From NCBI RefSeq assembly GCF_026151205.1, contig NC_087074.1:15002667-15066666 (forward strand): a stretch of DNA of 64,000 nucleotides. Reading direction: 5' to 3'. This DNA is from Bolinopsis microptera (taxonomy: Eukaryota > Ctenophora > Tentaculata > Lobata > Bolinopsidae). The notes under the pieces are model-generated. The model was not told where the DNA came from. It did no database searches and saw nothing but the letters and a program-made list of their open reading frames with translations. A program made the position numbers and the translations under genes. Shown here in pieces: positions 32,057 through 58,693 of this stretch; position 1 is the first letter of the stretch, and each line of letters begins with the position of its first letter.

Positions 32057-35000
32057 TTAGCCACTAGCTTCACCAACTCCATTCTCCTCGAGCGTGATAT
32101 CTTTCAGATCAGCGACAGCTCCGTCAATTGTAACGGCATCTTCGTCACCGTTTTCATAAGACGTAACAGCTTCTTTTGTTAAAATCTTAACACTTTCAAG
32201 GATACTTTCCTTATCGTTAAGGTTTACAGCACTTGCCCCTTGATCCCCGTTTACCACGAGGTTGGAGTTCACAACATTAGCTAGTTCTGGATCCTCAATC
32301 TTATTGATGAATGTTTTCTCCGCGGTAACCTCATACTCCATACCCGCGTCAGGTTCAGCCGGTACCGGCTCCACAACTGCCTTATCAACTAGAAGTTCTT
32401 CTGTTTCTACGATTGTTACTTCTTCTGGGACAGGCTTCTTCTTCTTCTTTCTCTTCTTCTTCTTCTTCTTAGGTGGGTTTAAAAGATCGTATTCCGCCTG
32501 CCTGGCAGCAGCCTCTTCTTTTTGTTTCTTCACCTCCTCCTCCAGTGCCCCCTTGTACTCGTTATAAGCGTCCATGGAAGCCAGCTCAGGTGGGCACGTT
32601 TCCTCTGCCGCATCCCACACTGATACTGGAGGAGGTCCGTTCAAGCCTTCTTTCTCGTGCTCCTCCTCTATCTTCTGGAAAACTGATATCATGAGATAGG
32701 ACTCTTTCTGTGCCTTGCTCAATTTGTGAGACCGCACCTTTTGAAGCAGCTTCCCTGCTTCCTTGTTACCAGGCTCTTGGTCCAGTAATGTGGTCAGATC
32801 TTTGACAGCCTCGTCATGAGAGCACAGCGCGTTATGCCCTACAGCGCGCCGGTACAGCGCTTTAACACACTTGGGCTGGGTCCAAAGAACAGTGGTGCAG
32901 TAAGACACAGCTTTAGGATAGTCCTCCATTTTCAGGTAAACTTGTGCCAGGTTGAGATTACATGCTGCCATTATCTCGGTGCACTGATCGTCTTGTTCAC
33001 TCTTAGCAACACTATCAATATACGTCATACACCGCTCGTAATACAGCTTAGCCAGTCTCAACTTATTAGCTTTATACGCGTTGTTTCCACGAACTTTCAG
33101 CTCCTGCACACTGCCCATAACTTCCTCAGTTGTCATCTTATAAAGAGCTTTCTCCTTCTCGAATGATAACAGTTTCAGTGTTATATTAGAGTCGGGGGTT
33201 TCGAGTAAACACGTTTCGTTCCGTGTCATGGTCAGAGTGCACAATTCCACAGGGTAGGGGACGTTGTAAGAGTCACCATCTCCTAAACGGAATAGGGTCT
33301 CTTTCGCTGCACTTCCCTCGCTCTCGATTGACACTGAAATTGATAAATTCGTTACATAAATTTAAGGTGATCAGTAAAAATAATATGTATGATCTACATT
33401 TTTAACAAAATAGTATATCGTACAAACCGAGTTAAGATAATGAAAATAAATAGCACCACAACTAACCTAAACATTTGCCAGTCCAGCAAGGTTTCCCCTT
33501 AGAGTTCCCCTCCTCCATTATACTCTTCCTTAGCGACTTGTTCTGAGCGGGTGAGATGTCTTGTCCTGACCAGTCCAACATTTCCACCTGAGAAGCATGG
33601 TTACTGGTGAGAGAGGATGATATAATAAATAATATATTAGTAGTATATTCAAGATCTTATACTGGGGCAGACCAGGGGTTGTTTTGTAAATAAGAGCTAT
33701 GATAAAACTGAATGTTAGTATAATAATGCTACTCATCACCCTATGTAGGTGTATCCTGTAAATTCTGTAATAACAAACAGTACCAACTACAATCTACAAA
33801 CTTTCAAATTTAACTGCCATCACACATTCTACAGGGATGCCTTGTTTCACATCCTCTCCCTCTACGGCGTCCCTGCTCCCATAACTGATGCTATCAGGCT
33901 CCTGTATGACTCATCGCACTCCAGAGTCAAAACCATTGACGGCCTTACAGACTTCTTTAGAACACTCATCGGGGTCCTTCAGGGTGATACACTCGCTCCT
34001 TTCCTCTTCATCATCGTCCTCGATTATGTCCTTAGGAACTGCATGACTCTTGACCATGGCCTAACCATCATCCCCAGGCAAAGTCGGAGAGTACCTGCGG
34101 TCAGAGTCACAGATCTTGACTTCGCTGACGACCTGGCCTTGACTGCCGATACCATAGAGCAAGTCCAGCAACTGCTCTCGGATTTAGAGACTGCAGCAGC
34201 ACATGTCGGACTTGCGATGAATGCTTCCAAGACCGAATACATGACCATCAACATTCCTGATGCTGCCCCCGTGAACTCAATATCCGGTTACCAGATCAAG
34301 CAGGTTGATGACTTCAAATACTTGGGCTCATATATTGCAGAGAGCAGGAAGGACTTCAACACCAGGAAAGGCATGGCTTGGTCAGCTTGTATCAAACTGC
34401 AGAAGGTATGGACCTCTGGCATTTCTGACCAGCTGAAAGTCAAGTTCTTCAGAGCATGCATCGAACCTGTTCTGCTGTATGGCTCAGAAACCTGGACCTT
34501 GAACAAGCAGTTTGAGAAGCGTCTCGACGGGTGCTACACCAGGCTCCTAATGAAAGCCAGGAATCTTTCATGGAAGAAGCATCCAACCCTAAAGCAAATC
34601 TATGGTGACCTCCCTTCCATCTCCACCATCGTTGCACAGAGACGTGCCAGATTTGCTGGGCATTGCATGAGAGCTTCAGACCAGGTCATCTCTACCATCC
34701 TTCCTTGGCGGCTGCCACAGTTCAGGCGTGGGAGGAGACCACTCTCTTTTCTTGACACCGTAGCCAGAGACACAGGGTTGCGGGTAGAAGATCTCCGAAC
34801 AGTTATGTGCGACAGAACCATCTGGAGACGTAGAGTGGAGGAGATTTCGATCGAGCATCGCCCAAAGTAAAGTAAGTACACATTCTACTATCAGTATTGT
34901 TCACAAATAAACTAGCTAACAAATACGTAATAACAATATCACCTCATATTACATGTACCTCAATAACTAGATCCTGACCGGAAGGGAGGTCAACAGAGAA

Positions 35001-38170: not shown

Positions 38171-40058
38171 TCCTAAAAATAACAATCTTTTTCATTAACT
38201 TCATCAAATTTTTGTTTGACTGAACTACCACCAACTTGTATTATAAGACAAAGTGCTGAAAGTTATTAAAATGTATTAACTCGGTGAGAATTATATTTCT
38301 AAAGGAGTTGAAGAATGTCAATTGTATTTTGCATGAAATTTAATTGCTTGAAGCAGTTTAGTGAAAAACTTAATGGAGTCATAACTTTTTCATCCAACTT
38401 TAAGTTTCATGTATCTGATCCAAAAAAGTTACTGGATTCATAGATATACTCAGGTCCCGACTGAATTTAATTAAAATAAATCAAAATTTAATAAGCAGTA
38501 TATAATGTGTTTAGGTTGTGTGTTAAAACCGCTGCTCTGGCTTATCAGTTAGTCTTTCTTTTAGTTTGCTGCTACCGTGTACTTTGTATGCAGTGTGTAC
38601 GCTGTATACATTACTATTATATACATCATACAAGTGCACTATGGCGGATGAGTCATAATATCATGTATTGGAGGATGAACTGAATCTGACCCAGTCCCAG
38701 GAGAAAATTCAAAATTTCGATCTTGATGAACAGGAAGATGGGGAGGGCTGTGTAAGATAATGCCTAGTTGGTTAAAACATAATATCTTGGTGAGACACGT
38801 GCAGAGCCAAGAAGTAAAAATGAAGCTCCAACTATGTAGCCGGAATTCTCGTATATCGGTTTGTTATATCCAAATAAGGAGATAATATTGCCTGGTAGGT
38901 TGAAACATGTTTGTGAGTAGATAGTTGCCTGTAGCTGCATCACATCAATATAAAACTCGGAACACAGTCATCTGATGCTAACCTTTTTACGCTGCTTTAT
39001 AGCAAGGAGATTCAGAGGAAGGCATCATTTTTGAGTAACCATTACCCGGCTACTAATTGATTCTTCGCTCGTAACAATGTTTACTTGCAGAGACTTTTCA
39101 AAGTTTGACCACTTGACCTTTTAGGTTTTAGAGACGCTTCATCAAATGTTTATAAAAAATATGATCCTTTTACAGCTGGGTAATGAAGTGGATTGTCTCC
39201 CATGCAGAAGGTCCCAGGTTCAAATCTGATCTGATGCAAGTCGGCCAGTCACCAAGCTGCTAATTGGTACAGCTTCAGCTGCTGATTATACACACTCCCT
39301 GGCTCGTATACAAGAATATCAGTACAGTGCCTTGGCTTAGAGTTTCTGAAAAGGAGATAAGCACCTTAGTTGAGGCCATTCTAACACTGGGCCCTTGTTG
39401 TTCCTTTGTTCATTGTTTTACATATTTGCACTGAGGGTTCACAAGTGGGGTCGGTCTACGAAACAACATGCAATTTATTATTTTATCAGAGCTTTTCAGT
39501 TTTCATTTCAAATTAAAACGAAACCAAAGTTTTTTTAAATTTTACTGGGGTAAAATTTTAAGTTTTTTATTTTGTTTTAGATTTTTTGGAACGTCTTTTT
39601 TTGTTGAAAAAACACTTTAGCAGTCATGGGCCACCATAATTGGTAAATGTAGAAAGTATTATTGCAACTGATTGACACTTTATTCAGACACTTTTCTAAT
39701 ATATCTAATCAGTTAATCTATCAGTGCAAATGCTTTCTTTAAAGGCTACTGTTACTTTAAAACTCAGAATTCATAGCCAGGGCAACCTTAAGTTTTTATT
39801 ATAATTTCAATTTTTAATTTACATATTTTGATATACGTATGTATTTATGTATCAAGCATTGATTAGTTATGGTTTTCTTAAAACATCATCTATTATAAGA
39901 TTTATAACATGGTCAACTATTAATAGGTTTGACTAATAACAGAAGTTAGAGTCTGATCAAGACTGTTGGAGTGCTGTTTCAAGATTAGCCTGAGTCGCTT
40001 TATTTTGGTGACACACATCAATCTAAGTATTATCTTGACAACTCAAACCCTCTACAAC
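38171..40058. other. intergenic spacer with a SINE-like sequence
   Basis: No protein gene recognised. Contains the tRNA-derived sequence at 39175-39245. The remainder is AT-rich. Confidence 0.4.
39175..39245 (+). repeat. tRNA-derived SINE head (A and B boxes)
   Basis: GCTGGGTAATGAAGTGGAT resembles a polymerase III A box and GGTTCAAATCT, about 40 bases on, resembles a B box. The following 150 bases lack tRNA structure, as in a SINE body. Ends are not defined. Confidence 0.45.
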
Positions 40059-42637
40059 ATGCTCCTGATCTTGATCATTTTTTCTGTTATACTTTCCCAT
40101 GTCAATGCTGAGGGGGAGGAAAGTACTGCTCAGGTTATAAAGCATTCATCTCACAACTTTGGGGGTGATATGTTCAAGTTGAGCATTTATAGTAGAGTCC
40201 TCAGTTCATCTGAAATACAAAGAATGTCATCAGACATGTGCTCTTTGGAGGAGGAGCTACTCGCCCCTATTAGAATTCTAAGTTGGGAGGAGATAGTGCA
40301 AAGTGAAAAAAAAGGATCAATAACAAAGATCCCATCTGGATGTAATTATCTCGCTAAAACAGTGATCAACAACAAGCAAGAGTTAGCTGCAACAAAGACT
40401 TCCTTGGATAATCTTACGAACTCTCTTACCACTACCCAAGAGGAACTAGACAGAACAAAGCAGGAACTAGACAGAACCACACAAGATCTAGTAGCAACAA
40501 AGACCAACAAGCAAGAGTTAGCTGCAACAAAGACTTCCTTGGATAATCTTACGAACTCTCTCACCACTACTCGAGAGGAACTAGACAGAACAAAGCAGGA
40601 ACTAGACAGAACCACGCGAGATCTAGTAGCAACAAAGACCAACCTGGAAAAGCGACTAGAAATCCTGGTCACCGGTCACAAAGGTAGCAAGAGTAAGTTA
40701 AATTTACCTAGCACAGACCGTATTTATTGATAAATAATAATTGTTCTTTTTAAATCTGTGATGTACAATTTGCACTTCCATCCCACACATAAATTTAAAG
40801 TTTTTTAACGTTAACAAGAATATTCCGACTAAAATATCATTTAATTGGTTTGGTATATCAATGACCCATGTCCCAACAATATCATTCAAAAAATTAATAA
40901 ATATTGTTATATCTCTAGACACAACATTATAATCGTGTACCTGGCAAAGGTCCTGCACGCAAAGTTTTCTTCTAAATAACACTATATACTCGGGTACACT
41001 TTTTCACCAGTGGGGCATTTCTCGGAATCACGCCCCTTTTTGACCGCACCCATATCACAACCCCAGCTATAAATTATCTCAGCCTCTGATTAAGATACAG
41101 ACTTCAGGCATGAACCAAAATGCGCCTAAGATGCATTTTTATAGTAGTGCTATGAACATACTTAAGGCCTATGAAACTTAGTTTTTGAGAAATTGCCACA
41201 AATCCAATTTTACCATGCTAGTAATCTCGCGAGTTACAATTATCACACTTAATGAGATGATTCTGACAATTTTAATGTTAGACAGGTTTCTGCTAATATG
41301 ACCAATTGATAGCAAAGTTTGAATATGCAACTTAATCAATCTTGATTGCATGCCAAATGGTAAGGGTCCAAACTTTAGGGATGGAAGAAAGCTGCTAACT
41401 GAACACTGGAAGCTTCTGTATCAAACACATTGTTACTGAATACCGAATACTACCGAATACTATAGGGGATATTCAATGATTCGGAAACACAGTGACAAGC
41501 CCCAGATTATTATCTCTACTATAATTCAGAGAATTGTTTTTGTACACTGTACACTGTACGACCGCCCACGTGCAAATTAGATGAAAAATAGGAATTTAGG
41601 TAACAACCCAAAGGTTCCATAGCAACAGTGTTTTAATGCACAAATGCACGTGCAAAGGTTGTTAAAACGGAATTTTTATCGGTTTTGTTGATATCACGTT
41701 GTGTTTAGTGCGAGCCACATTTTAATCGGCTGTATCTTCGGTTGTGTAGGATATTTTTTGACGCGATTTAAACTCACTAATAAAAAATACTATTAGCTTC
41801 TTTCCTGTAGCCACGGGTTTTCTAGTTAATTATAATCTAAAGCAGGCAACTCTTATAAATTACAATAGTATAGGCTAATACGATAACAAATAAATAAATA
41901 ACATGTAATTATTTTCAGAACTGTATTTAACTCTGATAATTGTGTTCGGGACTGTCTCAGTAATCCTCCTGATTATCCTGACAGTCCTTCTCTACAAGCT
42001 GGTGGCAACAATGAACACAATCCAGCCCATTATCATGAGCAAACTTGCCAGAGCAACTCCTAGTGTTCGAGGACAAGGCCCCAGTATAGAAAATGACGCT
42101 GGAGGGAGAGTAGTAGTCAGGAATAGGAGATTGAGTGAGGGTCCGAGAACAAGTTTAACTGTTGAAGAAGTTGAATCAGTTAAGGACCAGAAGTGTGGAG
42201 GAAGAGGATGTAAAACTTGTCCTTACTTGTTTAATTCAGATGAGAAGATTTTGGTTAATGGGGAGGAACTACGCTTGGATTACAAACTCAATTGCAAAAG
42301 CAAAAGCATCACATACATTGCACAGTGTACCCTTTGTAGCAGTTTGCCCCAAGAATTGAAGGTGGACATCTATTTTGGACAGTCTGTTTCCCCCATGCAT
42401 GAGCGGATGAATGACCACAGAAATAAATTTAAGATAGACAGTTCTTTGACTTATGAGAAATCGGCCCTTTCAATACATTGTTTTTTGACCCATAGATCCT
42501 CCTTTAACATGTCAATTTATAAATTAGGAATTGTTAAGAAAGTGAAGCGACTGGATTTAAATAGAGAAGAGGCCAGATTGATTGATAAATTTAGGACTAA
42601 GATTTGGGGTTTAAATAAGATAGTAGTTGTTAGATGA
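40059..42637 (+). CDS. predicted single-pass membrane protein: coiled-coil ectodomain, TM helix, cytoplasmic GIY-YIG domain
   Basis: Two exons, 40059-40692 (donor GTAAGT; 40683 is an alternative in the same phase) and 41919-42637. The ATG at 40059 starts a signal peptide (MLLILIIFSVILSHVNAEGEE). The ectodomain has a tandem pair of 45-residue Gln/Glu/Thr/Lys-rich units (NKQELAATKTSLDNLTNSL...) of coiled-coil character with NLT glycosylation sites. Exon 2 opens with a long hydrophobic helix (TVSVILLIILTVLLYKLVA), then a basic stretch and a Cys cluster (CGGRGCKTC), followed by ITYIAQCTLC, IYFGQS, HERMNDHR, LSIHCFLTH and EEARLIDKFRT...GLN. These match in order the Cys motif and GIY-YIG nuclease of Penelope-like retroelements, including the Tyr, YxG, Arg, His and Glu positions. 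Function unknown; a captured retroelement domain is inferred. Confidence 0.78.
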
Positions 42638-42650
42638 TTTCATATTTATA

Positions 42651-43423
42651 TACAGGGTGGGCCAAAAGTCAGTGGGCATACGTTGGCCTTAATAGCTCTG
42701 CCGTGTTTTATATTTGAGAGCTGTTGCTTTGCAGATAGCGTACTGTACCTACTGGTTCGAGGATTCCATCGTCAAAATTTGAAAATTCGAATATTTTAGA
42801 CCACACCCATTCAATATTAAAACACCTATATTGTTTTTTCTGAACATGCTGAACGCCTAATTTTTTCAGAGACGGTAGATTATTAAATGTTGCATATGAT
42901 CGGAAAACATGAGGCAAAACGGATTAGAAATGACGAAGTTATCTAGCATTTTTTGTATCTCGTTAACAAAATTGACTGGGTGATTGTGTGACACCGTGAC
43001 ACGACACCTTAATTGGGCACCCTTAACAATTCCCATAATGTTTAATGGGGTGGTTAACGGGGTCACCTAATCACATGATTAGGTAAACCAATCACCTGAT
43101 CACACGTAACATGAATAAACTCGTTATTCTTCATATCTTGGTCATCCGAGAAGATACAGTTCTAATTTTTTCAGGACAAACGTAATTCGAATGGCCAAAT
43201 ACAATTCAATAAAATTTAGCACGATCCTACTATCCAAACTATCAAATAAATGCAAAAATGAACCTTCATTTGAAAAAAATGAACTCGAACATTTTTCGAT
43301 TTGACAAATTTCTCGAACCAGTGGTGGAAGTAAGTCATACCAGAAAGAATTATTTCAATTGGGCACTCAGTGACTGAGCTATTAAGGCCAACGTATGCCC
43401 ACTGACTTTTAACCCACCCTGTA
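42651..43423. mobile_element. mariner-type MITE with about 47-bp inverted termini
   Basis: Left end TACAGGGTGGGCCAAAAGTC and right end (reverse complement) TACAGGGTGGGTTAAAAGTC, both continuing AGTGGGCATACGTTGGCC and TTAATAGCTC. TA at both edges. 773 bases with no transposase. It starts 14 bases after the stop codon of the GIY-YIG gene, so that gene's 3' UTR and poly(A) site must lie inside or beyond the MITE. Confidence 0.9.
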
Positions 43424-43782
43424 GTTTCATCTTCATGTTTCTATGTGTTGTCACTGCATTTAAATATTGAGTTCTGATCCTTTGTAAATGATTTTCCCCA
43501 TTTGAATTTTGATTCCCTGTTTTGGCGAGTTTTCAGACATTGGTCTGTCTTAATTCATAAAAGTTTTCTGACTTACGTATATTCAGGTCTCATGATGTAG
43601 TTTTTCTACGAAGATTTCAACCAGAGCCTAAAACCGCCCGGAAATTATGTCGCATTAGTGGTAAAAATCCATCAATTAAGCCACTTACCACCGGCCGATT
43701 TTTTAAAAATTTGCTTATGGGCTTCATCAGTCAGTCCCGTAACTCTTACATATCGTTTTTTTATAACTGTTTGGAAATTTGA

Positions 43783-43816
<34 letters not shown>

Positions 43817-45282
43817 TATTTTTTGAGATTATTAAGGTTGATATGTATCTATGATCATAATCACTTACTATTTAATTGTATTTTATTTTTATTTAATACA
43901 GATCTTTAATTTGTAGAGTCAATTAAAATTAAATAATTAAACCAGACAAAATTTTTACTAACTAACTTTAGCGAACATATATTTGACTTGATTCACGATG
44001 TCAATCCTTCGCAGCTCGGTGAGGCACAATTAAATGGTGCATCTCGCCGATCTACCGAAGAATTATTTGATGCAAGAAGAATTATTTGATGCGCGGCGCG
44101 ACCCAGTAGTGCATCGCGTTACAAATATTTGACGCGGAATATCTTCATGTTACTTGTCTGCATTTCTTCGAAGTAACGCACACCGCCACTGCATGCGCGA
44201 CAGGCTAGGTGTATAACTGGTTGAATTTAAAATTTGAATTTTTAAATATTTTGTTTTTCTTGATTTAACTACTGCTGTCGCGCGCGCGCCATTTGCAGCA
44301 GTTAGTAGCAGTCAGCAGCAGTTAGCCTAGCAGTAGCTCTTTGCACTGTAGTCCCCCTGTGCGGTTATCCCACAGCTTACTGATAAAACAAAAACGTATA
44401 AGCATATATGTGCACAGAACACTTGATTCACGATGTCAATCTTTCTGCCTTCGCATTTTGCCGATCTGCTTAATCATATCTGTGGGTCGGCCGTTGTGAG
44501 AAGATGCACGGCGCGGCCCAATAGTACATCGCGTATATACAAACAGAACACAAACGGTCAAAATCTTATTGCATATCGTGCCCCACTTTTTTAAATGAAA
44601 ATGTATTGCAGCGTATTCTCTAAAATTAGAATATGAAGTAAATTTAGGTGGCAGCAAAATTTGATGCATGGTGGGAAAAACTACAAATAAGTTTTGTTGT
44701 CGGTTAGTTATACCATATACAAGAAATGGTCGATTTATGCAACAAAAAAAAAGAAATCGAATTGCACTGCGCATGCATATTTAAGCTGATACACTATAAA
44801 CAATGAAATAAAACACACCATGAATTTACTGGGCCGCGCTCAGCCTGTCATTGGTCATTCCGCCGAATCTCTATTATTGATTATGTTTATGAACATAATA
44901 GCCTGAGGTCCCCAGGTAAACCATGAATACACCATGAAATAAAATAAAAATTGAGTGCCACAGTTAAATCTTTCGTATTTCGAAAACTAAAAGAATTTTT
45001 CATTTTAATAGTTTTGTTTCCGTACGAACCGTTTTTTGTTTTTGTCTACACAAAACTTTGTTTTTTTTTTGTGTAAATTGATTTCTCACGATCTTTTATA
45101 TATTTTTACCAACATATTTATGTAATCCACCCTGTTAACAACTGTAGTTTGTAGGATCTAGTCAGCTTATGAGAGCTGATTTCAAACCATCTTGGATGAT
45201 GTATGATGATTTGTTTATCCAATTGTCTACTATTAGGAAAACAAATTTTAGGAAAAAGATCGTCACGGACTCCAGACCCAGG
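43424..45282. other. intergenic, repeat-rich, no gene seen
   Basis: Holds a (CA)n tract at 43782-43817, two similar blocks starting TTGATTCACGATGTCAATC (near 43989 and 44423), GC-rich CGCGCGC pieces (44280, 44090), and a single end of the AACTGCTACT-repeat family (about 44290-44370). No coding region recognised. Confidence 0.5.
43782..43817. repeat. (CA)n microsatellite
   Basis: ACACATACACAC... dinucleotide run of about 36 bases. Confidence 0.95.
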
Positions 45283-45990
45283 AGGAGCAAAGTGCAAAGA
45301 AACTGCTACTAACTGCTACTAACTGCTACTAACTGCTGCTATCTGCTACTCACTGCTGCAAACTGCTGCAAACTGCTACTGACAAATGCCTAGGTCTATC
45401 CAAATGAAATCTGGAACGAGTTTCGTGACAGAGCTTCTATCCATTTATCTCTATCACTCATGAGCCAACGTAACTTATCAGGATCCAATCCAGTATCTTC
45501 TTGTAGGACGTCCGGAAAGGTCTTATGTGGTCGTCCTCTATACCGATGGCCATAGGAGGGCCGAGGGTTGCCAGAAAAGGAGTTGCTGAGCAGGTTGGTC
45601 TTGTAGACAGGGTATATACAAGAATGCTATGAAGAGTCTTTGGTGTCTCATGGAAATCTCACACACCAAACTCCGTTCCATACGGAAAGATTCCACCGGT
45701 GACAGATACCATAAAGACACAACGACTTCGTTTTGCAGGACATGTGTAAACTGCTACTAACTGCTACTAACTGCTACTAACTGCTACTAACTGCTACTAA
45801 CTGCTGCAATCGCGCCCACGCATTGCGCGCGCCGTTTGCAGCAGTTAGTAGCAGTTAGTAGCAGTTAGTGGCAGTTAGCAGCAGTTAGTAGCAGTTATTA
45901 GCAGTTAGCAGCAGTTAGTAGCAGTTAGTAGCTGTTAGTAGCTGTTAGTAGCAGTTAGTAGCAGTTTCTTTGCACCATGGCACCCCTGTG
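45283..45990. mobile_element. foldback-type element with arrays of a 10-bp repeat (AACTGCTACT)n
   Basis: The left side starts GTGCAAAGAAACTGCTACT and runs in (AACTGCTACT)n to 45380. A second array in the same sense lies at 45747-45807. The right side is an inverted array (AGTAGCAGTT)n at 45838-45965 ending AGTTTCTTTGCACCATGG. The ends are inverted copies of one another. A related end with the CTTTGCAC...CCCCTGTGC pattern occurs at 44340-44366. Between the arrays are reverse-transcriptase scraps. Exact ends and target duplication not found. Confidence 0.65.
45400..45746. pseudogene. two LINE reverse-transcriptase C-terminal scraps in opposite orientation
   Basis: The minus strand of about 45542-45400 reads YRGRPHKTFPDVLQEDTG followed by LDPDKLRWLMSDRDKW, matching the tail of the LINE at 33833-34877 (FLDTVARDTGL...CDRTIWRRR). 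The plus strand of about 45590-45746 reads DRVYTRML, a stop, VFGVSWKSHTP, then TQRLRFAGHV, matching the region just before it (CYTRLLMKARNLSWKKHP, RRARFAGH). So adjacent parts of one LINE lie head to head. Confidence 0.75.
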
Positions 45991-46680
45991 CAGCAGAGGT
46001 CATATTCAAATAATGAACTTCATTTTGAAACCGTTCTTGATTGATTAACATTGATCACTTGGGGACCTTTTTGGGAAAACTTGTACGTTTTGAAATACTC
46101 ATTAAGTCCATATAATATATTTGTCATATTTCAAATGTGCTTGTTGCCAGATGCACTCTGCATGTTTTAAACTATTTTCACAACTACAATTAAATACATT
46201 TATTGAGGACTAGCAATGGTTATGTTAACAATGAACTAGAGACCTTGTTTGGACGATGGGGGGCTCAGGGAGGATGGATCACTGCTCCTAGAAAATGAGT
46301 TGAGTTGTCAGTTCGGTTCGTCATGTGTTCACATACCACTAGTCACTACACCTAATAAAAAACCATTGCTAGTCCAAAAAAATATATAGTAGTGTTGAAG
46401 TATTCCAAGATAGGCATTCTCTGAATACCTGTCTCAACAAATTTTTTGCCCTGAATTTATTTATTTTTACTCTGAAAATTCTGCTCAAACAATTTTACCT
46501 ACACACTTAACAATTTCAAACCAAATCACCCCATCCAAACCCAGTTTGTCCTGTTGTTGTTAGTGTGTCTGACCTTTGAATGATTTACATATTTTTGAAT
46601 ACTTCAATCACTCTTTTGAAAGTTCTTGAAAAAATTCTATTCAATCATATTCCCACTTAACCCACCTCATATCACTCACA
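45991..46680. other. flank and probable 5' UTR of the CR1-like LINE
   Basis: No gene seen. The 5' end of the LINE could not be placed. Confidence 0.35.
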
Positions 46681-46772
46681 ATGAACCGGCTGATGCTCTT
46701 CTCCTTTCAGGTGCAGGGGTCTGTCCAAGCTGGCCCCCTGGACTCCGGACATATCTCTGATATCATATCATC

Positions 46773-48854
46773 ATGGCTACTACCTCAAGTGCTAGTACCC
46801 AAAGGCGTTCCCCTAGACACACTCCTCCTCCTACCAACCCAGGATCCAGAGCTAGCATGTCACCATCCGGCAGAGGAGCTACCTCCCAAAAGAAGAAACC
46901 TCTAGCAGACAACAAAGCCCTGCGCAGGAACAGCCCTAGCGCAATGGCCCAGAAAGCTGTGCTGGGTAAACGCCCATCAAATTCACCCCAAGAACAACCA
47001 GAGACATCTGTTCTTAAACCTCCAGGTAATCTGGTTATTGAAAAGATCAGCCCAAACCTGATATCAGCTTTAGAATCATCGAACCTCAGAGAGAGCCCCA
47101 GCAGTCCAATGAGCCCTCTGTACAAGTCCTTTCCTCCATTCTCCCATGCTGAAGAGTCTGCTGAAGAACTTGAAATCCAGGATAAACCTACAGTAAAACA
47201 ACGGGCTTCAAAGAGTGATTGTCCTTGCCGATCAACATCAGATGGTAAGGAATGGAAGTTCAAGTGTACCAGATGTTTTCAGCACTGGCATGCTTCCTGT
47301 TGCAATCTCAAGGGTGCTAACAACATTCAGCACGATACACCTCTTGAAGCTTCTCTGAATATTATTCTCTCAGAATGGCTATGTCCATGGTGTTTCGATA
47401 CATCATTCCCCAGACCAGGCTCCAGCATGTCAGCCAAGATGGACAACAACCTAAAGAGCTCTGTAGACTACAGCCAGAACATACAGGCTATATCAGATGC
47501 TATTTCTAATGCTGTTGGTAACAGTATGCCTACTGTGGAGATTGTATCCCTGGAGACAAGACTGAAGAAGCTGAGTCAAGAGATTCATGAATTTCAGCAG
47601 TCCAGAAGTCCATCTGAAGCACCACCTGCTACAGAAATCCCCCTCCCTAAATGCACAGAACCTCCAGTGTGTGATTACCTGGTCGATGTGCTAAGTGCTG
47701 AGATCCTCAAAGAAGTTACAGAGTTTCTCCTGGAGAGCCAAGCTAGTAATAAGTTCATCCCGAAGAATGGAAGACAGGTCCTCAAGTTTGGGGAAGACTA
47801 CTCTTATACTGGTGATTCAGACCCACCCCTATCCCCCACAATCCCAGCACCCCTTGCCTCAGCCATAGACGCAGTTACATCAAAGTGCAGACTGACCCAT
47901 AAGCCCAACTCCATCCTAATAAACTACTACCCTCCCTCAGTTGATACCACCACTAGTAGCAAGCTCCCTTTTCACTCTGACGATGAGTCTGAGATTATTG
48001 CTAACTCAGAAATTGCTACTATCAGCATAGGCGACGTCAGGAAGGTGTGCTTTAAGTGCATCCATGAGACCGGAAACGAAGTCTCAACTGAGTATGTTCA
48101 TAGTGTGAGTCCAGAATCTAACTCAGTGTATGTGATGACACGATCGTCACAAGCCTGGTATCGTCACGGTATTGATGAAACAGGTCCTGCTGAAACTCAG
48201 TCTTCTGTGCAGACAGGAAGGTTCTCCATCACACTGAGAACTGTGAGCAAACAGTTTAGCCGGAGCTGCATCATCATGGGCGACTCTAACACCAAGCCCA
48301 TCAAGTTCGGTGTCGGTACTGGAACCCTTGGACAGTCCTTCCCAGGTGAACGTGTTAAAGCCAACAAGGTCAGTGCAATAGACCCTAAGCTCTGCATTGG
48401 TTATAGCAACGTCATCTTAGTTTGTGGGACCAACGATCTACGAGTTGAAAATGTGCAGTCACCTGGTGATATACACCAGCTGGTAGACATTCTCCACCTG
48501 AAAATCCAGCAGATCCAGAAACTGTGCCCTAAGGCGAAGTTGTTTGTCACAGCAGTTTTACCGTCTAGACTCCCTAAGATGAATAAAAACATTATGGCAT
48601 TCAACAGCTTGGTTGATGAAATGTTGTACTCTAGCTTTAACCAGACTGTATGGCACCTTGGTGTTGGCCACTTTTTAGACGGTAAAGGGTTGCTTGCTAT
48701 GAAACTCACGAGAAATGGTGATGAAATCCATCTCGGAGAGCTTGGTATTGCTAAATTTGTAAGATGTCTGAAACAGTGGGTGTATGTGAGGGAGAGACAG
48801 GAGAGAGTAAGACAAAGGAAGGCCACCCGACCAGTGGGAGTTTATCCCACTTAG
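46773..48854 (+). CDS. CR1-like LINE ORF1: PHD finger and SGNH esterase-like domain
   Basis: Intact 693-codon frame. The first 140 residues are Ser/Pro/Arg-rich. A PHD-type zinc finger follows near 150-205 (CPCRS ... FKCTRCFQHWHASCC ... WLCPWC). The C-terminal third has the SGNH hydrolase blocks: IIMGDSNTK (catalytic Ser near 503), VILVCGTND (near 545) and the D-x-x-H block GDEIHLGELG (near 649). Such esterase-like domains are known in CR1 ORF1 proteins; RNA or membrane roles have been suggested, but the substrate is not known. The ATG is taken from the first Met of the frame (MATTSS). Confidence 0.85.
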   Translation: MATTSSASTQRRSPRHTPPPTNPGSRASMSPSGRGATSQKKKPLADNKALRRNSPSAMAQKAVLGKRPSNSPQEQPETSVLKPPGNLVIEKISPNLISALESSNLRESPSSPMSPLYKSFPPFSHAEESAEELEIQDKPTVKQRASKSDCPCRSTSDGKEWKFKCTRCFQHWHASCCNLKGANNIQHDTPLEASLNIILSEWLCPWCFDTSFPRPGSSMSAKMDNNLKSSVDYSQNIQAISDAISNAVGNSMPTVEIVSLETRLKKLSQEIHEFQQSRSPSEAPPATEIPLPKCTEPPVCDYLVDVLSAEILKEVTEFLLESQASNKFIPKNGRQVLKFGEDYSYTGDSDPPLSPTIPAPLASAIDAVTSKCRLTHKPNSILINYYPPSVDTTTSSKLPFHSDDESEIIANSEIATISIGDVRKVCFKCIHETGNEVSTEYVHSVSPESNSVYVMTRSSQAWYRHGIDETGPAETQSSVQTGRFSITLRTVSKQFSRSCIIMGDSNTKPIKFGVGTGTLGQSFPGERVKANKVSAIDPKLCIGYSNVILVCGTNDLRVENVQSPGDIHQLVDILHLKIQQIQKLCPKAKLFVTAVLPSRLPKMNKNIMAFNSLVDEMLYSSFNQTVWHLGVGHFLDGKGLLAMKLTRNGDEIHLGELGIAKFVRCLKQWVYVRERQERVRQRKATRPVGVYPT

Positions 48855-48860
48855 TTTATC

Positions 48861-51800
48861 ATGATTATGAAACTTATTAAAGATGTGTGCGACCCCTGTA
48901 GTAAATACATTAATATTGGCCAGCCACTCTTAGAATGTGAAAATTGCAGCAAAGTTGTTCATACTAAGTGCTTCAGATCCGCGAAATTTACAAGCAAAAA
49001 CGGTCTATGGATGTGTAGTGATTGCTGTAGTACAATAGAAGATAGGTATTGCCCATTTCCAAGCAGCCAAAGATATGTTGATTCAGATAAATTCTATGAT
49101 ACAAACAACCAGGAAGATGTCACCATAGCTAAATTCTCTTCAATACTTGAAGACTGTAAGCGTTACACAAAACAAGAACTAGCAAACTCAATCAGCAAAC
49201 TTTTTCCTGAGAAAAATAAAAATTCTGCTTATCTGCCCGCTCTGTTTTGCAATATAGATGGGTTTGCTAGTAATTTTGACAGCTTTTTAATAGAACATAA
49301 GACCCTCCCGTGTAATTTTGATGTCATTGGATTGGCTGAGACCAACATCGATCCAAGCCAACAAGGCTTATACCAAATCCCCTCCTATACAACATTTTGT
49401 CAAGTACCATTCCCTGATAAGAAAAAAGGAACAGGAGTATCCTTATATGTCTCTGATCGCCTGAATGCTGTAGTAATCGAAAATCTATCTCACTGTACAA
49501 AAGATATTGAGTGCTTATTTGTTGAAATTACTCTTAGCTCGGGTGATAAACTGACATATGGGGTTGCTTATCGTCCTCCAAATGGCTGTAGTGAGACCTT
49601 TTGTCAAACTCTTGAGGATATATCTAAGCAGTTGGCTGGTAAAAAGTTCCATATTCTTGGCGATTTTAACTCTAACCTCCTCAATGTACAAACCTCCAGC
49701 CAGCTATTTGAGGACACGTTACTTCGTAACAATATGTATCCTACTATATCACTTGCTACCCACTTCCGTCCTAACTGTAAAAACTCATGTATTGACAATA
49801 TCCTCACATCAGAGATAGATCATGTACTTCTCTCCGGTGTATTGAATGATAGGATTGGTGACCATGCCTTTATATTCACCTTCACGTCAATTCCTACCGA
49901 AAACAGTACTGAAAAACTTAAACATGTTCGCTACTATGATTATTCAAGTTCCAAACTCACTAATTTTGTTAATGAACTCGAGGTGAAGGTGAATGACTTA
50001 ACTCCCTCGGTAAACTTCAATGAGTTCTTGGACTGCTTCAATGAAACACTTGATAAACACTGTAAGCTTGATGTACCAAAAGTTACCAAAAGGACTCCCA
50101 AACTCAACCCGTGGATTACTGATGGAATCATTGTCTCAGTTGAAAGAAAACATGAACTCTGTAGAGACTGGTCAAGCACTGTAACAAATAGAAACCCTGA
50201 GGGTAATGTACTGCTTTATAAAGTCTTCAGTGACTACCGAAGAATGCTTAAAAGTATTATCAAGGTCGCCAAACGATCGTACTACTGCAATGAAATCCAT
50301 AAAAATATAGAAAACAGCAAAAAAACGTGGCAGATAATCAATGAGCTCAGGGGCAAGAAAAAGAAGCAAACTAAGCCTCCCTTTATCATAAACAACGAAC
50401 GAATCATGAATCGTAGAGTCATAGCCAATGGATTCAACTCTTACTTTGTTTCTATTGCCCCTAAGCTCAATGAAACACTTAGTAGCAGTGAGGCCTCTGG
50501 TTTACCAATTCTCCCTATAAAAACATTCTATGATTTCCTTGGAAAGACTAATGAAAAATCGATTATGTTAGAAGACTGTACACCTTATGAGATAACGGAA
50601 ATAATAAAAGGATTGAAAATGGAAAAGCAAGTGATATTCCTGTTAGTGTAATCAAAAGATCATCTCACGTAATTACACCGATCCTTAGTCGATACATCAA
50701 CATCTTAATGTCTAATGGCACGTTCCCCGACGTTCTAAAGACTGGTAGAATAACTCCTGTATTTAAGAAGGGAAACCCTGAAGAGATAGAAAACTACCGC
50801 CCAATCTCTACTCTCTCTATATTTGGTAAAATCTTTGAAAAGATCATTTACTCAAGAATATATTCGTTTGCTAGCTCACAGGGTATAATATCTAAAACAC
50901 AATTTGGCTTCAGGCAGTCACACTCTACTTCACATGCAGTTAATCACTCAGTAAACCTTATAACTGAATCTCTAAAACTTAAGCATCATGTCTTAGGCAT
51001 ATTCATAGACCTTAGCAAAGCTTTTGATACAATAGATCATGGTACATTACTTGTCAAATTACAGGGCTATGGGATACGTGGGGTGGCAAATGATCTTATA
51101 AAAAGTTACTTAACAAATAGATCACAATATACTGAAGTTGTTGGTGAGAAATCTGACGCTCTGAAAATACAGTTTGGAGTCCCTCAGGGTTCGATTCTTG
51201 GACCTCTCTTATTTCTCCTATATATTAATGATATCGCCAACAGCTCCAGTTTGGGATCATTCGTCACTTTCGCTGATGACACCAATATATTTGTGACTGG
51301 GAAATCTAAAAAGGAGGCATATATGCGTGGTAATTCTCTTTTAGCTAGTTTATATTCCTACATGCGAGCAAACAAACTCCATGTCAACTTGTCTAAATGC
51401 TGTTTCATTCACTTTAAACCAGCATCGTCCTCCCAGACTGACAATAATTCTGAATATACTCTAACCATTGATAACTTCCCAATAAAACAAGTTGCATCTG
51501 CTAAGTTTCTGGGAGTCGTCATCGATGAAAAGCTAACCTGGGAAGAACATATAAAATCACTTAGGCGTTCTCTCAGCCATGCAACATCAACTCTCTGCCG
51601 CCTACGCTGCTCCCTCCCAGATTTCTTACACCGCCAGTTGTATTACACTCTATTTGAATCACACCTCTCCTATTGTATCACGGTTTGGGGTGGGGCAGCC
51701 AAAAATCGTATAAGTTCTGTATTCAAAGCACAAAAATATTGTCTCAGGGTACTGTTTGGCGACAGGGAGGCATACCTAGATAAATTTAAGACCTGTGCTC

Positions 51801-52255
51801 GTGCTCGACCGTTTGGCAACCAAAATCTGAACAAAAAATTTTTCTTGAAAGAACACACGAAACCTTTGTTCAAGGAACACGGAATACTTGCCGTTCAAAA
51901 CCTGTACACTTACCATTGTTTCCTTGAGCTCTATAAAATCATGAAATTCCGTGCTCCGATTTCCCTCCATGAAAATTTCACCTGCTCAAGTAGGAAACCC
52001 ACCCTTATACTAAGCCAAGCAGACCCCCCTGACAACTTCAATAGCAGAACGACTCGTATTTGGAACGTAATTGTGCCTAAGCTTGGTATACGTGACTACT
52101 GTCTAAGTGTGGCTTGCCTGAAGTCTAGGATGAAGCAATCACTGCTCGTCAACCAGCATAACCATGCTGATCTTGATTGGACAAACAAAGATTTCGAATG
52201 CTCTAATCTAAATTTTGACATTAAGTCTACCCTAGGGTCCACACATCCAAAATGA
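48861..52255 (+). pseudogene. CR1-like LINE ORF2 (PHD, endonuclease, reverse transcriptase), one frameshift
   Basis: The first part, 48861-50651, has an N-terminal PHD finger (CDPCSKY ... CENCSKVVHTKCF ... MCSDC) and an APE-type endonuclease (CNIDG, GLAETNID, ILGDFNSN, GDHAFIF). The frame then breaks at about 50620 (GGATTGAAAATGGAAAAGC), where one A is missing from an A-run in the usual GLKNGKA-type motif. The second part, to 52255, carries the reverse transcriptase (GRITPVFKKG, YRPISTLS, IDLSKAFDTID, GVPQGSILGPLLF and the catalytic FADDTNIF) and its C-terminal tail. Apart from this one base the protein is complete, so the insertion is recent or the break is an assembly artefact. Confidence 0.88.
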
Positions 52256-53533: not shown

Positions 53534-56500
53534 CTAGAGCATTATGCACTTGCCAGTATTTGAGTGGAAATCTGGGCTCTTATAATAGGCTGTATATTGT
53601 TCGTTCACAGAGAGAATTGAATGGATTGCTCTTGCTGTGGCAGTAAATTTGGTAGGATCTAGATTTTTGTTGGAGAGCAGACCGGCTAGGTCAGTGATGT
53701 TTTGGGGATAAAAGTTGAATTTTTCCCTAACTGAGGAGTAAAGCAAACAGTCAATTAATACATGGCTTTCGTCCTCGATAGGTTTGAGCCCTTTACTGAA
53801 AAAGCAGTAAGTGCACCAACGTTCTTCTCTTGGTACAAGAGGGGTTTCGTATCTGCCCCTTTCAACGTAGAGGTTGTGGCAGCTGATACGAAACCTTGTC
53901 AAGCTTTTTCGAAAATCAGGTACTTTGATTATTCGTAGGTATGCCTCTGGTTCAAAATCATGTTTAATTAAGTTATAGAATTCTAGTTTTGGTGAGGAGG
54001 CCTTGGCAGATTTCCAGGTATTCACGAATTCTTCCCTCATATTATGACTGATTTGGGTGGAGAGCTTAGATTTTGATGAAGATGAGTGGGGGAAGTTGTA
54101 TTTGGTGAGAAGCTTTGAGATGTTGGTATACCAAGGAAGGCCCAGCATGATCTGCTCGTGAAATGCAGCACAAAGTAGTTCATTTTCGGTGCTTTCAAGG
54201 CGACTATAGTAATCTATTGCAAGTTTGCAGGCTTCAAAGAATAGGGGGTGGCGCCCACTTTCGCCCCAGCAACCTATATTTGATGCTTTTGAATGGACGG
54301 ACAAAGACCACTTGATAAATTTTAGGTGGAATTTCTCATAGTGGTCCTGTGCAATGTACTTCAGGGTATGCTGGGGGCTGGCTTTGTCATCTATTTTTGA
54401 AAGGTATCTCATTGTTTTAGAGTGGGGGCATAAGACTTGACAGCCATAAAGCAGGATTGGTTTGATTAAGGAATCAAATAGAATATTAAGGGCACGGTGA
54501 GAGAGGGCATCTTTAACTATATTGCCTTTAAGGCCATATAGAGCACGGAGAGCTTTGGCCCTCAGCTCAGTATTTGCTGCCGTAAAGGATCCATTTCTGT
54601 GGAATATTATGCCAAGATAGCAGTACTTTTCGGTGTGCTGGATGGGCTGACCTCCCAATGTAAATGTTACATGGGACTGCTTCTTTTTGGGAGGGCTGAA
54701 TATGACAATCTTAGTTTTCTTTATATTTACTTCAAGGCCCATGGAGTTACAGAAGTCAGATAGAATGTTGATATTGACTTGCAAGGCCTTGGGACTTAGA
54801 GCAAGAAGGACAAGATCGTCAGCCCAGAGCAGATGTGATATTAGAACGTCAGCAAGAACTGGATAATCACCAACAGATTTCAGAAGTGATGACAAGTTAT
54901 TAATATAGATTTTAAAAAGGTCTGGTGATAGGGGGTGTCCTTGCTCCGTTCCTTTGCCAATATCAATTTTAGGGGACAAGAGTTTGGAGATTTTTATATG
55001 AGCAATTGAGTTTTTGTACATATCACTTAAGCAGTTAAAGAAGTTACCGGTAATTCCGAGGCATGTTATTTTGTGCAGAAGAAGGTCCCTACATACAGTG
55101 TCAAAGGCCTTTCTTAGATCAACAAAGCATGCATAGAGACGAGCTTTTTTAACTTTAGTGTATTTATCAATGACTGTCTTAAGGGTGAAAACGTGATCAT
55201 TAGTTTGAGCACCCTTCGAGAAACCGAGCTGTTCTTTTGGATCAGGACAGTAGAGCTTTTTGAAGTATAACAGACGTTCAAGTAAAATGCTAGAGAACAG
55301 CTTACCCATACAACTGCCAACTGCTATTGCTCTGTAATTGTCTGGGCTGAAGGGGTTGCCTGATTTGTAGATAGGAGTGATAATACTGGTATGCCATGGA
55401 TAGTAACCTGAGACCAGAGAGTGGTTGAACGTTTTGAGGATGACTTGGAGACAAAGCGGAGTTAGGCTCTGAAGCATTTCGTTTGAGATCAAGTCATTTG
55501 AGCAACTTTTACCCTTTTTGAGCTTTTTGATTGCAGAAGTTAGTTCGGGTTCAGATATGAGCTTGTTTAGGATATCCAGATCTGGTGGTTCAGGGTAATG
55601 ATTGTGATTGTGGTGAGTGGGATCGGGCTCCTGGTCTGGTTTCTTATAGAGGGATGCAAAGAAATCATGAAAGCTAGCTAGATCGAATTTGTCAAGTAGG
55701 GGGCTAGTGTCATGTTCTTGTTTAAGCCTTTTAAATTTTTTCCAGTCAAGAATATGACCCTCTTCAATAGCTTCATTTAACTTCCTAAGAAAAGATAATT
55801 TCTTACTGTTAACAAGATTACTGTGCTTATTGCGCTGCTTGTAATATTCACGTCTGAGAATATTGTTGCAGTGCTTACTACCTAGCCGGTTTGCTAGCCT
55901 ATTCAGGTTTCGCCTCGAGGAGTTGATTTGTGGGTCAAACCATTTCTTGTGGGCGGAAGTTTTAGGAGGTTTTTTCACTTTTAACGCTATATCAGCAGCA
56001 CTGTGGAGACAGTTAGTAATTGCATCGTTCAGTTCATGATTGCCCTCCAAGGTGCTGCTAAATTCGTTTGCTGCAATGTTTTCCAGGTTACTAACAATTT
56101 CGGGCGAGTTAAGGGCTGTTTTAAATAGTGAGTGAGAGGTGTTGCTGTCCCACTTATAGCCACAAGGAAAATTAGAAAAGTCTGGGAGCTGGAAGTTGGC
56201 AACAAATGGTTCAAATGTGGTAAGTTTCAAGACTAATGGACAATGGTCAGAGTATGATGTAAACTCCTTCACTTGGAGAGAGTTTACATGATCCCTTGCC
56301 CATGAGGTGATTACGAAATAGTCAACCACACTGCTCCCATTGTATTTGTGACAGGTCATTTTTCCAGTGGTGTCCCCGAGGGTACGGCCATTAAGAATTT
56401 TGAGTTGGTTATTAATAACCATGTCAAGAAAATGTTGGCAGTGGGGTTCAGATATAGTCAGGTCAGAGTTGTTTCTGGGTTCTTCGATGTCATGTTCAAG

Positions 56501-57067
56501 TCCAATGTCATTGTAAATGTCATGCATGGCAGGTGCATTACAAGAGAGGATATAGTCTGGGAGTTTTCCAGTTCTTGCATTTGCATCGCCACACATGATA
56601 ACCTCTCCCTTTTGACGTAGTCTGATACAGATGGAGTCAAGAGCGGAGAAAGTATTAGCAGTATAGTCTGGATTTTTTTTGACATAGGACGAATATGCAG
56701 GGCTAATATAGTAACATACTAAAAATAGGTCAAAATCAAGCTTAAAAAAGTTTTTGTCAAGTTTGACAACAATAATATCGTCAGATTCGCTACAAGGCAC
56801 ACAAGAAACACCTTTTCTTAAATCATTTTCAGCAAGAATGCAGACCCCTCCTGAGCGAGAATTTTTGCGGTTGCTATTAAAAGAAAGGTATCCTTCAATC
56901 TTAACTTGTTTCTTTGTTTCTTGGAGACACAGAATGTTAGCTTGATTGAGGATTGAAAGAAATTCTTTATTTTCAAATTTGTTAGACCCATCTCCTGTGC
57001 TGTCCTGAATGTTCCAGGACATTACAGCGAGTTGATCTCGTGAGGCTTGTTTTTTATTGAATTTCAT
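53534..57067 (-). CDS. LINE ORF2: APE endonuclease and reverse transcriptase, 1177 codons intact
   Basis: A single uninterrupted frame. The N-terminal endonuclease has VMSWNIQD (near 15), CLQETKK (near 50), MCGDANARTG (near 160) and TSYSDHCPLV (near 272), the metal and phosphate-contacting sites of APE-type nucleases. Reverse-transcriptase blocks follow: IITPIYKSGN, YRAIAVGS, ACFVDLRKAFDTV, GTEQGHPLSPDLF and the catalytic HLLWADDLVLLA. The C-terminal part has a Cys/His segment (WCTYCFFSKG ... ESHVLIDC). No stop or frameshift anywhere, suggesting recent activity although the element is 5'-truncated in ORF1. Confidence 0.92.
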   Translation of the reverse strand: MKFNKKQASRDQLAVMSWNIQDSTGDGSNKFENKEFLSILNQANILCLQETKKQVKIEGYLSFNSNRKNSRSGGVCILAENDLRKGVSCVPCSESDDIIVVKLDKNFFKLDFDLFLVCYYISPAYSSYVKKNPDYTANTFSALDSICIRLRQKGEVIMCGDANARTGKLPDYILSCNAPAMHDIYNDIGLEHDIEEPRNNSDLTISEPHCQHFLDMVINNQLKILNGRTLGDTTGKMTCHKYNGSSVVDYFVITSWARDHVNSLQVKEFTSYSDHCPLVLKLTTFEPFVANFQLPDFSNFPCGYKWDSNTSHSLFKTALNSPEIVSNLENIAANEFSSTLEGNHELNDAITNCLHSAADIALKVKKPPKTSAHKKWFDPQINSSRRNLNRLANRLGSKHCNNILRREYYKQRNKHSNLVNSKKLSFLRKLNEAIEEGHILDWKKFKRLKQEHDTSPLLDKFDLASFHDFFASLYKKPDQEPDPTHHNHNHYPEPPDLDILNKLISEPELTSAIKKLKKGKSCSNDLISNEMLQSLTPLCLQVILKTFNHSLVSGYYPWHTSIITPIYKSGNPFSPDNYRAIAVGSCMGKLFSSILLERLLYFKKLYCPDPKEQLGFSKGAQTNDHVFTLKTVIDKYTKVKKARLYACFVDLRKAFDTVCRDLLLHKITCLGITGNFFNCLSDMYKNSIAHIKISKLLSPKIDIGKGTEQGHPLSPDLFKIYINNLSSLLKSVGDYPVLADVLISHLLWADDLVLLALSPKALQVNINILSDFCNSMGLEVNIKKTKIVIFSPPKKKQSHVTFTLGGQPIQHTEKYCYLGIIFHRNGSFTAANTELRAKALRALYGLKGNIVKDALSHRALNILFDSLIKPILLYGCQVLCPHSKTMRYLSKIDDKASPQHTLKYIAQDHYEKFHLKFIKWSLSVHSKASNIGCWGESGRHPLFFEACKLAIDYYSRLESTENELLCAAFHEQIMLGLPWYTNISKLLTKYNFPHSSSSKSKLSTQISHNMREEFVNTWKSAKASSPKLEFYNLIKHDFEPEAYLRIIKVPDFRKSLTRFRISCHNLYVERGRYETPLVPREERWCTYCFFSKGLKPIEDESHVLIDCLLYSSVREKFNFYPQNITDLAGLLSNKNLDPTKFTATARAIHSILSVNEQYTAYYKSPDFHSNTGKCIML

Positions 57068-57074
57068 GGTTATT

Positions 57075-57519
57075 CTAACGCTCTGTGGGGGGCTGCTTTC
57101 TATAGGATCTCATACCAAAGGCACGGTATAGGCCAAGTTTGATATTCATACAGAGTTTTTTTAGACCATACTCTGAGACATGAAGTTGGTCTTCCTTCAG
57201 AGGGTTAGGAGAGTCTTCAGATGACTCAGCAGCAGAGATGGCTCGGGAGAAGTTTCCAGTGTTGTTTACAGTGAAGAGGCGCCGGTATAAGTCACTAAGC
57301 TCTCTTTTAGTGGAGACAAATTGGGTGATCTCCGAAACAAATTGATTTGTTAGATCACTTATTGGGCCAGGAGTTGGAGTGGGCAGGGAGACAACAATTT
57401 TAGCACTGGAACTTGAGAGGAGTGTGTCGATGGCTTCTTTTGCATCCTTGACTGCTTTATTAACATGACGGTCATTATATCTGTAATCATTAACTCCGAG
57501 CTGAAGAATGTAGCAGTCA
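57075..57519 (-). pseudogene. LINE ORF1 fragment, SGNH esterase-like C-terminal part
   Basis: The frame ends at a TAG seven bases before the ORF2 start. It contains YILQLGVNDYRYND (the GxND block) and KEDQLHVSEYGLKKL (the D-x-x-H block) of SGNH hydrolases. The N-terminal part with the GDS block is missing because the element is truncated at 57519. Confidence 0.75.
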
Positions 57520-57524
57520 ACACA

Positions 57525-58693
57525 TGTGCGCTTAGGGGGTAATTTGGTAGAAGGAGTTAAAGTTGAGAGTTTTAGGCGAGGTCAGAGGTGTCTTTAGCTT
57601 TTCTTTATTTTCGAGATAGAGGGGGGGACAATTGAGACAAGTTCGTAAACTAATGTAAAGCGAAGTGGAGTAAAGTATAAATACTACTTGTCACAAAATG
57701 AGTCACAGTATAGGATTCTGTACCCTCAGTACTGGAACTTACAAACTTAAAAACGTCAAACATTGGGACTTAAGAGTCAAGGCCCAAGAAACAAGAACCC
57801 AGAGCTCAAAAGACAAGAACCTATAACCAAGCCCTAAGACCTAAGGGTCTGAAGCCTAAAAGTTAAGAGCCCAAAGCCACTTATTGGATGAAAATACGAC
57901 CTTATAAATAATTCCTTATCGCATTCATGACGTCATTCACGTGTCTGAATCGTAACAATATCATTATCAATGTCTCTGAATTCCGTGCAAAATTGAAATC
58001 AATTTATCTGATCTCGTTCTTAAAAGTGTTATAATTGTCTTCGTAAATCTCGTTGCTACTAAAACAATATTGCAAAACATTCTTACGTCCTTCTCTTTCA
58101 AAGGGATAACCTCCTTATCTTTCAAAGGGAAAACTCGTCTTATAAATCATATGCTACAACAATATTGCAAAACATTCTTACGTCCTTCTCTTTCAAAGGG
58201 ATAACCTCCTTATCTTTCAAAGGGAAAACTCGTCTTATAAATCACGTTGCAAATACACAAAACTCGAACAGCATAAACTTGTCTCCGTGCGAATCTCCAC
58301 AGTAACATATTTCTTCACACGATCTTATTACTTTAAAAATTCTAAAATAAGCGCACGTGAAAGTCTGATTTAAATTCCTGCAGGCTTGGATCATTAACCT
58401 GTAAATAATTCTAAAACTTTGTTAATTATCACCTTATCGTGAAACCTGGAGATGAGCCGACTGGCTCAATCAAAATACCAGTCAAGACCATTCAAAACTA
58501 ACCACTTGGAATGCTCGGAATATCAAGAACTTAAATCTAAACAGCTTAAAATAAGGGTACAGAATCCGTGGGAGGTTCCGTAGTAAATGGGCTGTAAGTT
58601 TCAAGGTCTTTACAATAATTTACGATCATATTAAAATGTGTTATTTGGACTTAAAGAAATGCTCGAATCAGGACGGATATTAAACAGCGTACA
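57525..58693 (-). repeat. 3' long terminal repeat
   Basis: Pairs with 60800-61968 at a constant offset of 3275 bases. I saw two mismatches (57746 against 61021, and 57995 against 61270). It contains an internal tandem duplication of about 95 bases (around 58061-58250) with CTTTCAAAGGGA motifs. Confidence 0.9.

Follow-up and report, generated by a model that had tools for sequence, protein, structure and literature searches.

Canonical Penelope-like elements (PLEs) encode a reverse transcriptase (RT) and a C-terminal GIY-YIG endonuclease (EN) in one open reading frame, and often occur as partial tandems with 5′-truncated copies, as set out in the portions available to us of two papers (PMC11167929; PMC3846280). 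A survey of GIY-YIG nucleases, also available in part, lists Penelope among the GIY-YIG families, as one in which an RT precedes the domain (PMC1564403). In bdelloid rotifers, the accessible text of one of these studies describes host genes carried between Penelope terminal repeats, and the same portion describes no membrane-tethered fusion (PMC3846280); subscription papers on Penelope and GIY-YIG proteins lay mostly outside our literature search, and absence from print is not claimed.

The 64,000-nucleotide stretch of the ctenophore Bolinopsis microptera analyzed here (the window; C3:15002667-15066666) contains a two-exon frame that joins a receptor-like membrane protein to a PLE-type nuclease domain. 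An initial annotation had seen in it a possible new use of a retroelement part. With considerable confidence, we regard the fusion instead as a 5′-truncated PLE relic joined by chance to a decaying receptor paralogue. Any protein made from it would probably not be under selection for nuclease activity. Comparisons were made within the same genome (264.65 Mb in 232 contigs), whose loci are given L-numbers, and the features of the fused locus and its flanks all lie on the + strand.

The fused frame runs from an ATG at 40059 to a stop codon at 42635-42637 and encodes 450 amino acids. Exon 1 (40059..40692), delimited by the frame and by paralogue alignment, carries the signal peptide, a LamG/pentraxin-like stump and the coiled coil. 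It is followed by a GT-AG intron of phase 1 (40693..41918), parts of which align with the intron of L034. The receptor part of exon 2 (41919..42112), comprising the transmembrane (TM) helix and the start of the cytoplasmic tail, is homologous to L034 until 42112. With a GT donor after 40692 and an AG acceptor before 41919, the segments 40059-40692 and 41919-42637 splice at phase 1, so the two exons are in phase as first described; L034 has the same donor sequence, and all of L033-L036 have the acceptor sequence. Because the receptor half and the nuclease half each have close relatives in the genome, a chance frame is excluded. The predicted signal peptide, coiled coil and single TM helix were reproduced. 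In a Kyte-Doolittle scan, the N-terminus is hydrophobic and resembles a signal peptide, and a single further stretch, near residues 212-235, is strongly hydrophobic and forms the predicted TM helix. The coiled coil is called from repeats and from weak Pfam matches to coiled-coil families, those shown all falling under the cut-off. Two 135-bp tandem copies (96%) were found by a repeat scan inside the coiled-coil stretch (40370..40643). Reading the first 26 residues as an intron was rejected, as the corresponding exon of L034 and of L035 also starts with a signal peptide like this one. Single-sequence structure models reached mean pLDDT values of 42 (confident only at the TM helix) and 31.

Several other features of the window were recorded. 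A single 677-aa open frame at 10321-12354 contains HEFGHTLGLRHS and, on that account, looks to us like a matrix metalloproteinase. A 1289-aa open frame at 14215-18084 holds a long Pro/Thr/Gln-rich repeat array followed by Cys-rich repeats with a 240-bp period, which resemble PAN/apple domains. The frames at 416-1345, 33749-34870, 46761-52255 and 53534-57109 resemble a mariner transposase and RT-encoding LINE-type elements. A 95-bp double repeat is present at both 58059-58244 and 61334-61519, 3275 bp apart, with one consensus.

The receptor half belongs to a large paralogue family. Exon 1 has at least 152 matches in the genome (150 scored of 334 candidates), and most alignments among the matches listed begin between residues 22 and 36. 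In the relatives L034 and L035, a signal peptide resembling that of the window copy comes first; they continue with a Pfam Laminin_G_3 domain (PF13385; E values 6e-17 and 7e-14, respectively) and then with coiled-coil-like repeats; L034 also matches Pfam Pentaxin (E 4e-7), and TM exons come after in L033-L036. The short tail of L035 has several tyrosines and ends in YDTVDSYEIYENLDSLK, an ending that, in our view, resembles tyrosine signalling motifs. Some members of this LamG/pentraxin-like receptor family carry coiled-coil repeats of the ATKQDL type, and 10 of the places listed form a cluster on C5 near 13.3-13.6 Mb.

The window copy shares with L034 the upstream region and the start of the signal peptide (39839..40127; 75% identity in a DNA alignment). 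It tracks its paralogues to 40127 and resumes, with the frame kept, only where their lectin domain ends, some 370 bp further on, and alignment against L033-L036 places the junction of this loss, which removed most of the LamG domain, at 40126..40140. Exon 1 of the window gave no LamG match in Pfam, in contrast to L034 and L035. As this in-frame loss took the greater part of the lectin domain, what had been described as a coiled-coil ectodomain is the remainder of a lectin-domain receptor. Between the window copy and the receptor paralogues dN/dS is 0.43-0.76, and among the paralogues it is 0.25-1.20 (44-69 codons), with L032 left out in the TM stretch, where it is unaligned, and the nearly identical pair L033-L036 also left out. 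These ratios do not set the window copy apart.

The remainder of exon 2 (42113..42637; residues 277-450) comprises the PLE-derived Cys cluster, the GIY-YIG nuclease domain and the element's stop codon, as indicated by genome matches and alignment. It is 63, 52 and 45% identical to the EN domains of L003, L023 and L073, respectively, and their alignment bears out the Cys cluster and GIY-YIG motifs read from the frame, placing this part among PLE-type EN domains with an upstream Cys cluster. The cysteines are invariant, and Tyr344, Tyr363-Phe-Gly365, Arg374, His378, Glu428 and Asn444 are kept, which we take to be the catalytic positions of GIY-YIG/PLE nucleases. The same alignment confirms that the Tyr, Arg and Glu singled out earlier are retained. 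Their retention proves little, since the Tyr, YFG, Arg and Glu positions are intact in the dead copies L053 and L052 as well; the conserved Asn is lost in L052.

Pfam GIY-YIG had no match on the window sequence, and its model PF01541 matched the L073 domain under the cut-off (E 0.013). A Pfam GIY-YIG match above the cut-off was obtained for L077, a further PLE-like domain, and an hhalign comparison of the L077 PLE-like pair with the window group covered 46 columns at 69% probability (E 4.5e-5). A genome search with PF01541 returned at least 147 matches (150 scored of 524 candidates); among four such loci, L076-L078 resemble the nuclease domains of PLEs, and L075 resembles SLX1. Searches of PDB sequences, including one with a profile of the window EN group, gave no usable match, searches of PHROGs and NCBIfam gave nothing usable, and a pattern search of viral contigs matched 40 stretches with no relatives among them.

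Copies of the element are dispersed through the genome. Exon 2 as a query has at least 150 matches (150 scored of 536 candidates), two of which are receptor TM exons. Among the matches listed, the nearest long ones are two fragments at 82-84%, L002 and L006, which are the loci L053 and L052, respectively; a few shorter pieces stand at 82-83%, and the long matches that follow, at 60-63% identity, lie in open frames whose length reaches 1013 aa. EN copies of the window's own family were found at C1:25.84M, C1:26.10M, C9:1.68M, C11:16.74M, C11:16.95M and C6:16.11M (86-94% DNA identity), together with more short pieces. The C1:26.10M copy lies in two pieces and duplicates C1:25.84M including the flanks, and the copies at C11:16.74M and 16.95M are identical in the part compared, their match ending at 42652. 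Starts of family copies fall at 42172, 42251, 42454 and 42516 on the window scale. In the copy at C11:1.02M, about 3 kb lies between the EN and UTR parts. Four nuclease-domain pieces of 61-90 bp (89-96% DNA identity) lie close together on one strand at C9:11.415-11.430 Mb.

No RT-bearing copy of the window's exact PLE family occurs among the matches listed. An RT-like part precedes the same EN domain in L003/L071, a single 1013-aa frame, and in L073, a 733-aa frame. As no Pfam RT was named in the L003 and L073 frames, the RT label rests on motif, order and length; it is the FIDD motif, with that order and length, that we take as the mark of an RT. In a related family, 18 of 18 compared copies share the 3′ end of the reference L003, and 14 of the 18 break at various points on the 5′ side, the other four extending beyond the DNA compared. 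Dispersed 5′-truncated copies with a common 3′ end are present for the window's own element as well as for this related family.

A second receptor-EN fusion was sought in the same genome, and none was found among the matches listed; a diverged case could escape such a search. Receptor sequence gave no match at the other window-family EN loci, taken with 1.5-kb flanks. When 148 EN places were compared with 148 receptor places, setting aside two TM exons and two more rows of the L032 gene, a single EN place of the 148, that of the window, had a receptor exon at a distance of 29 kb or less, among the matches listed. Several apparent carriers of both parts were rejected. The match of L017 to residues 4-238 has five stops, and its tblastn alignment covers only residues 274-450. 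In L023 the tblastn alignment starts at residue 213 (40%), with no clear TM match before the EN, and the locus sits behind an ORF, directly ahead of the nuclease fragment, that is presumably Copia-like. Matches on C12 and C15 that begin at residue 19 were dismissed as TM carriers, the one that was read, L073, being an RT-EN-like frame.

DNA homology between the window and L034 ends at 42112, and the match to PLE nuclease domains starts at 42113. Past this junction, L034 reaches a stop after 3 codons if read in its own frame and after 12 if read in that of the window; a difference of one base before the junction separates these frames. Comparison of the two flanks revealed no recognizable target-site duplication. 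A search of the downstream region (43601-48000) did not recover the tail of the receptor; the L034 tail scored no better than shuffled sequence. The only strong match there, to L033, was rejected as the receptor tail and read as a repeat, because that stretch is absent from L036, the near-duplicate of L033. As both a target-site duplication and a downstream receptor tail are missing, a simple insertion is not proven.

Behind the stop codon the window continues in sequence of the element. The first 15 bases of the PLE 3′ UTR (42638..42652), identified by alignment with dispersed copies, are followed by a 769-bp inserted element (42653..43421) that is flanked by TA at either end and has inverted repeats of 48 bp (95.8%, counting the TA). 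The remainder of the UTR (43422..43629) consists of the second TA and 206 bases. This 3′ UTR is common to dispersed copies at 87-94% DNA identity: in L052, L053, L057 and L058 the match continues beyond the stop codon into this UTR with 42652 joined directly to 43422, and all four lack the 769-bp element. Its inverted repeats, its flanking TA and the plain site in L053 identify it as a later insertion. All seven UTR copies read past 43629 show the same further bases, about 36 in number, and six of the seven end in AAATAAA; the window has lost these end bases. With 43423-43760 as a query, at least 41 places were returned (40 scored of 631 candidates), comprising the window, 14 UTR matches and 26 of another repeat. 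These 26 of the 41 places listed match only from query base 207, marking 43645..43730 as part of an unrelated repeat. One UTR copy, at C11:1.024M, has a receptor exon in the opposite orientation about 5.5 kb away. Taken together, the missing target-site duplication, the missing receptor tail and the lost UTR end indicate that a later deletion or rearrangement took part, or that the junction itself is a rearrangement.

An error of assembly or haplotype, joining two unrelated stretches, has in its favor that the lectin loss, the PLE junction and the lost UTR end fall close together. The fused exon nevertheless stays in frame at the junction and there is no N in 39001-44000, making this the least probable of the explanations considered. 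It is also improbable that PLE machinery carried an intron-containing receptor copy to this site in trans, by analogy with the bdelloid host genes described in the accessible part of PMC3846280. The retained intron and upstream region and the PLE 3′ sequence at the 3′ end of the receptor copy would suit such transport, but the window contains one UTR copy and one EN part, neither of them upstream of the receptor, the junction lies inside receptor coding sequence, and the flanks again lack a recognizable target-site duplication. In the origin we favor, a 5′-truncated PLE would have inserted into the last exon of one receptor paralogue, possibly by target-primed reverse transcription, or a rearrangement would have joined it there. 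The element would have met the receptor a few codons before the stop position of L034, so that the receptor TM helix is now followed in frame by the GIY-YIG domain from the C-terminus of the element, with the stop codon and 3′ UTR of the PLE after it. The 769-bp element entered the PLE UTR later.

Whether the nuclease part has since been maintained can be gauged from its substitutions, counted by three-sequence parsimony on the branches to the window, L053 and L052 over 124 shared codons; the counts are small, and the branches may partly predate insertion. The window branch carries 13 nonsynonymous and 5 synonymous changes, and the dead copies carry 5 and 4 (L053) and 5 and 3 (L052), with one ambiguous site. 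The nonsynonymous share of the window (13/18, 72%) compares with a neutral expectation of 0.72-0.79, and a count of 13 or more among 18 has a probability of 0.003 under an omega of 0.2, 0.03 under 0.3, 0.22 under 0.5 and 0.72 under 1. The window nuclease part is consistent with neutral change as far as these sequences go; with 18 changes, an omega of 0.2 or below is disfavoured, 0.3 is marginal and 0.5 is compatible. The chance of zero stops in 18 changes is 0.38-0.56. Coding sites have not changed less than UTR sites on the window branch (18/378 vs. 4/217; Fisher P 0.07), and its coding excess is not repeated in the dead copies, with 9 coding and 7 UTR changes in L053 and 8 and 8 in L052. Pairwise dN/dS between the window and eight copies is below 1 in all eight cases (0.45 for L053, 0.59 for L052, then 0.88, 0.26, 0.79 twice, 0.63 and 0.21). 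Since L053 and L052 differ from each other with a dN/dS of 0.30, part of these low pairwise values goes back to the time when the element was active. The nuclease part was examined for purifying selection as a mark of domestication, and none was found. The initial annotation had itself conceded that neutral evolution of exon 2, combined with lack of the fused architecture in other species, would speak against its reading, and the nuclease-part data are compatible with such neutrality on the basis of 18 changes.

These data bear most directly on the view that the locus is a working chimeric gene, in which a nuclease tail took the place of the lectin domain and the short tail and which encodes a membrane-tethered GIY-YIG protein. 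The signal peptide, the TM helix and the open frame agree with it, as would an omega of 0.5 (P 0.22), and the frame intact over both exons, the conserved splice sites and the kept catalytic residues count against a relic. The view is very unlikely all the same, given substitutions that fit neutrality, a single instance among the matches listed, the loss of the lectin domain and the element's UTR still attached. Moreover, 5 of the 14 amino-acid changes on the window branch fall at positions invariant in L003, L023 and L073 (T362I, T367S, G377D, D426N and R445K), and 3 of 10 do so in the dead copies, one of them at the conserved Asn. The claim of a new use for a retroelement part is thus not upheld, with the 3′ UTR attached, the copy 5′-truncated and its changes fitting neutrality. 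A slimmer chance is left to a transcribed frame whose product is anchored in the membrane and carries its Penelope-type GIY-YIG domain on the cytoplasmic side, under a weak constraint hidden from 18 substitutions.

As it stands, the locus represents one more retroelement insertion into a gene. It illustrates how a chimeric frame that looks convincing yet has no function can arise from a 5′-truncated PLE, and that, for a young insertion, an open frame and kept catalytic residues say little in favor of co-option. Should the fused frame prove to be under selection or expressed, it would constitute a new protein architecture.

Set beside LamG/pentraxin-like receptors of the L034/L035 type, the window copy has the signal peptide, coiled coil, TM helix, splice sites and upstream region in common with them; unlike them, it is without most of the LamG domain, and its short tail has been swapped for PLE sequence. 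As in the bdelloid genes described in the available text of PMC3846280, an intron-containing host gene adjoins Penelope sequence, whereas the window has no terminal repeats on both sides and its EN is fused in frame (PMC3846280). In contrast to canonical PLEs, with RT and GIY-YIG EN in one ORF, the window copy is without RT, the piece being EN only, an EN-plus-UTR remnant in the exon of another gene. With those elements, as far as the accessible portions of their descriptions go, it shares the C-terminal Cys cluster and GIY-YIG domain followed by the UTR, and a genomic setting of dispersed 5′-truncated copies (PMC11167929; PMC3846280).
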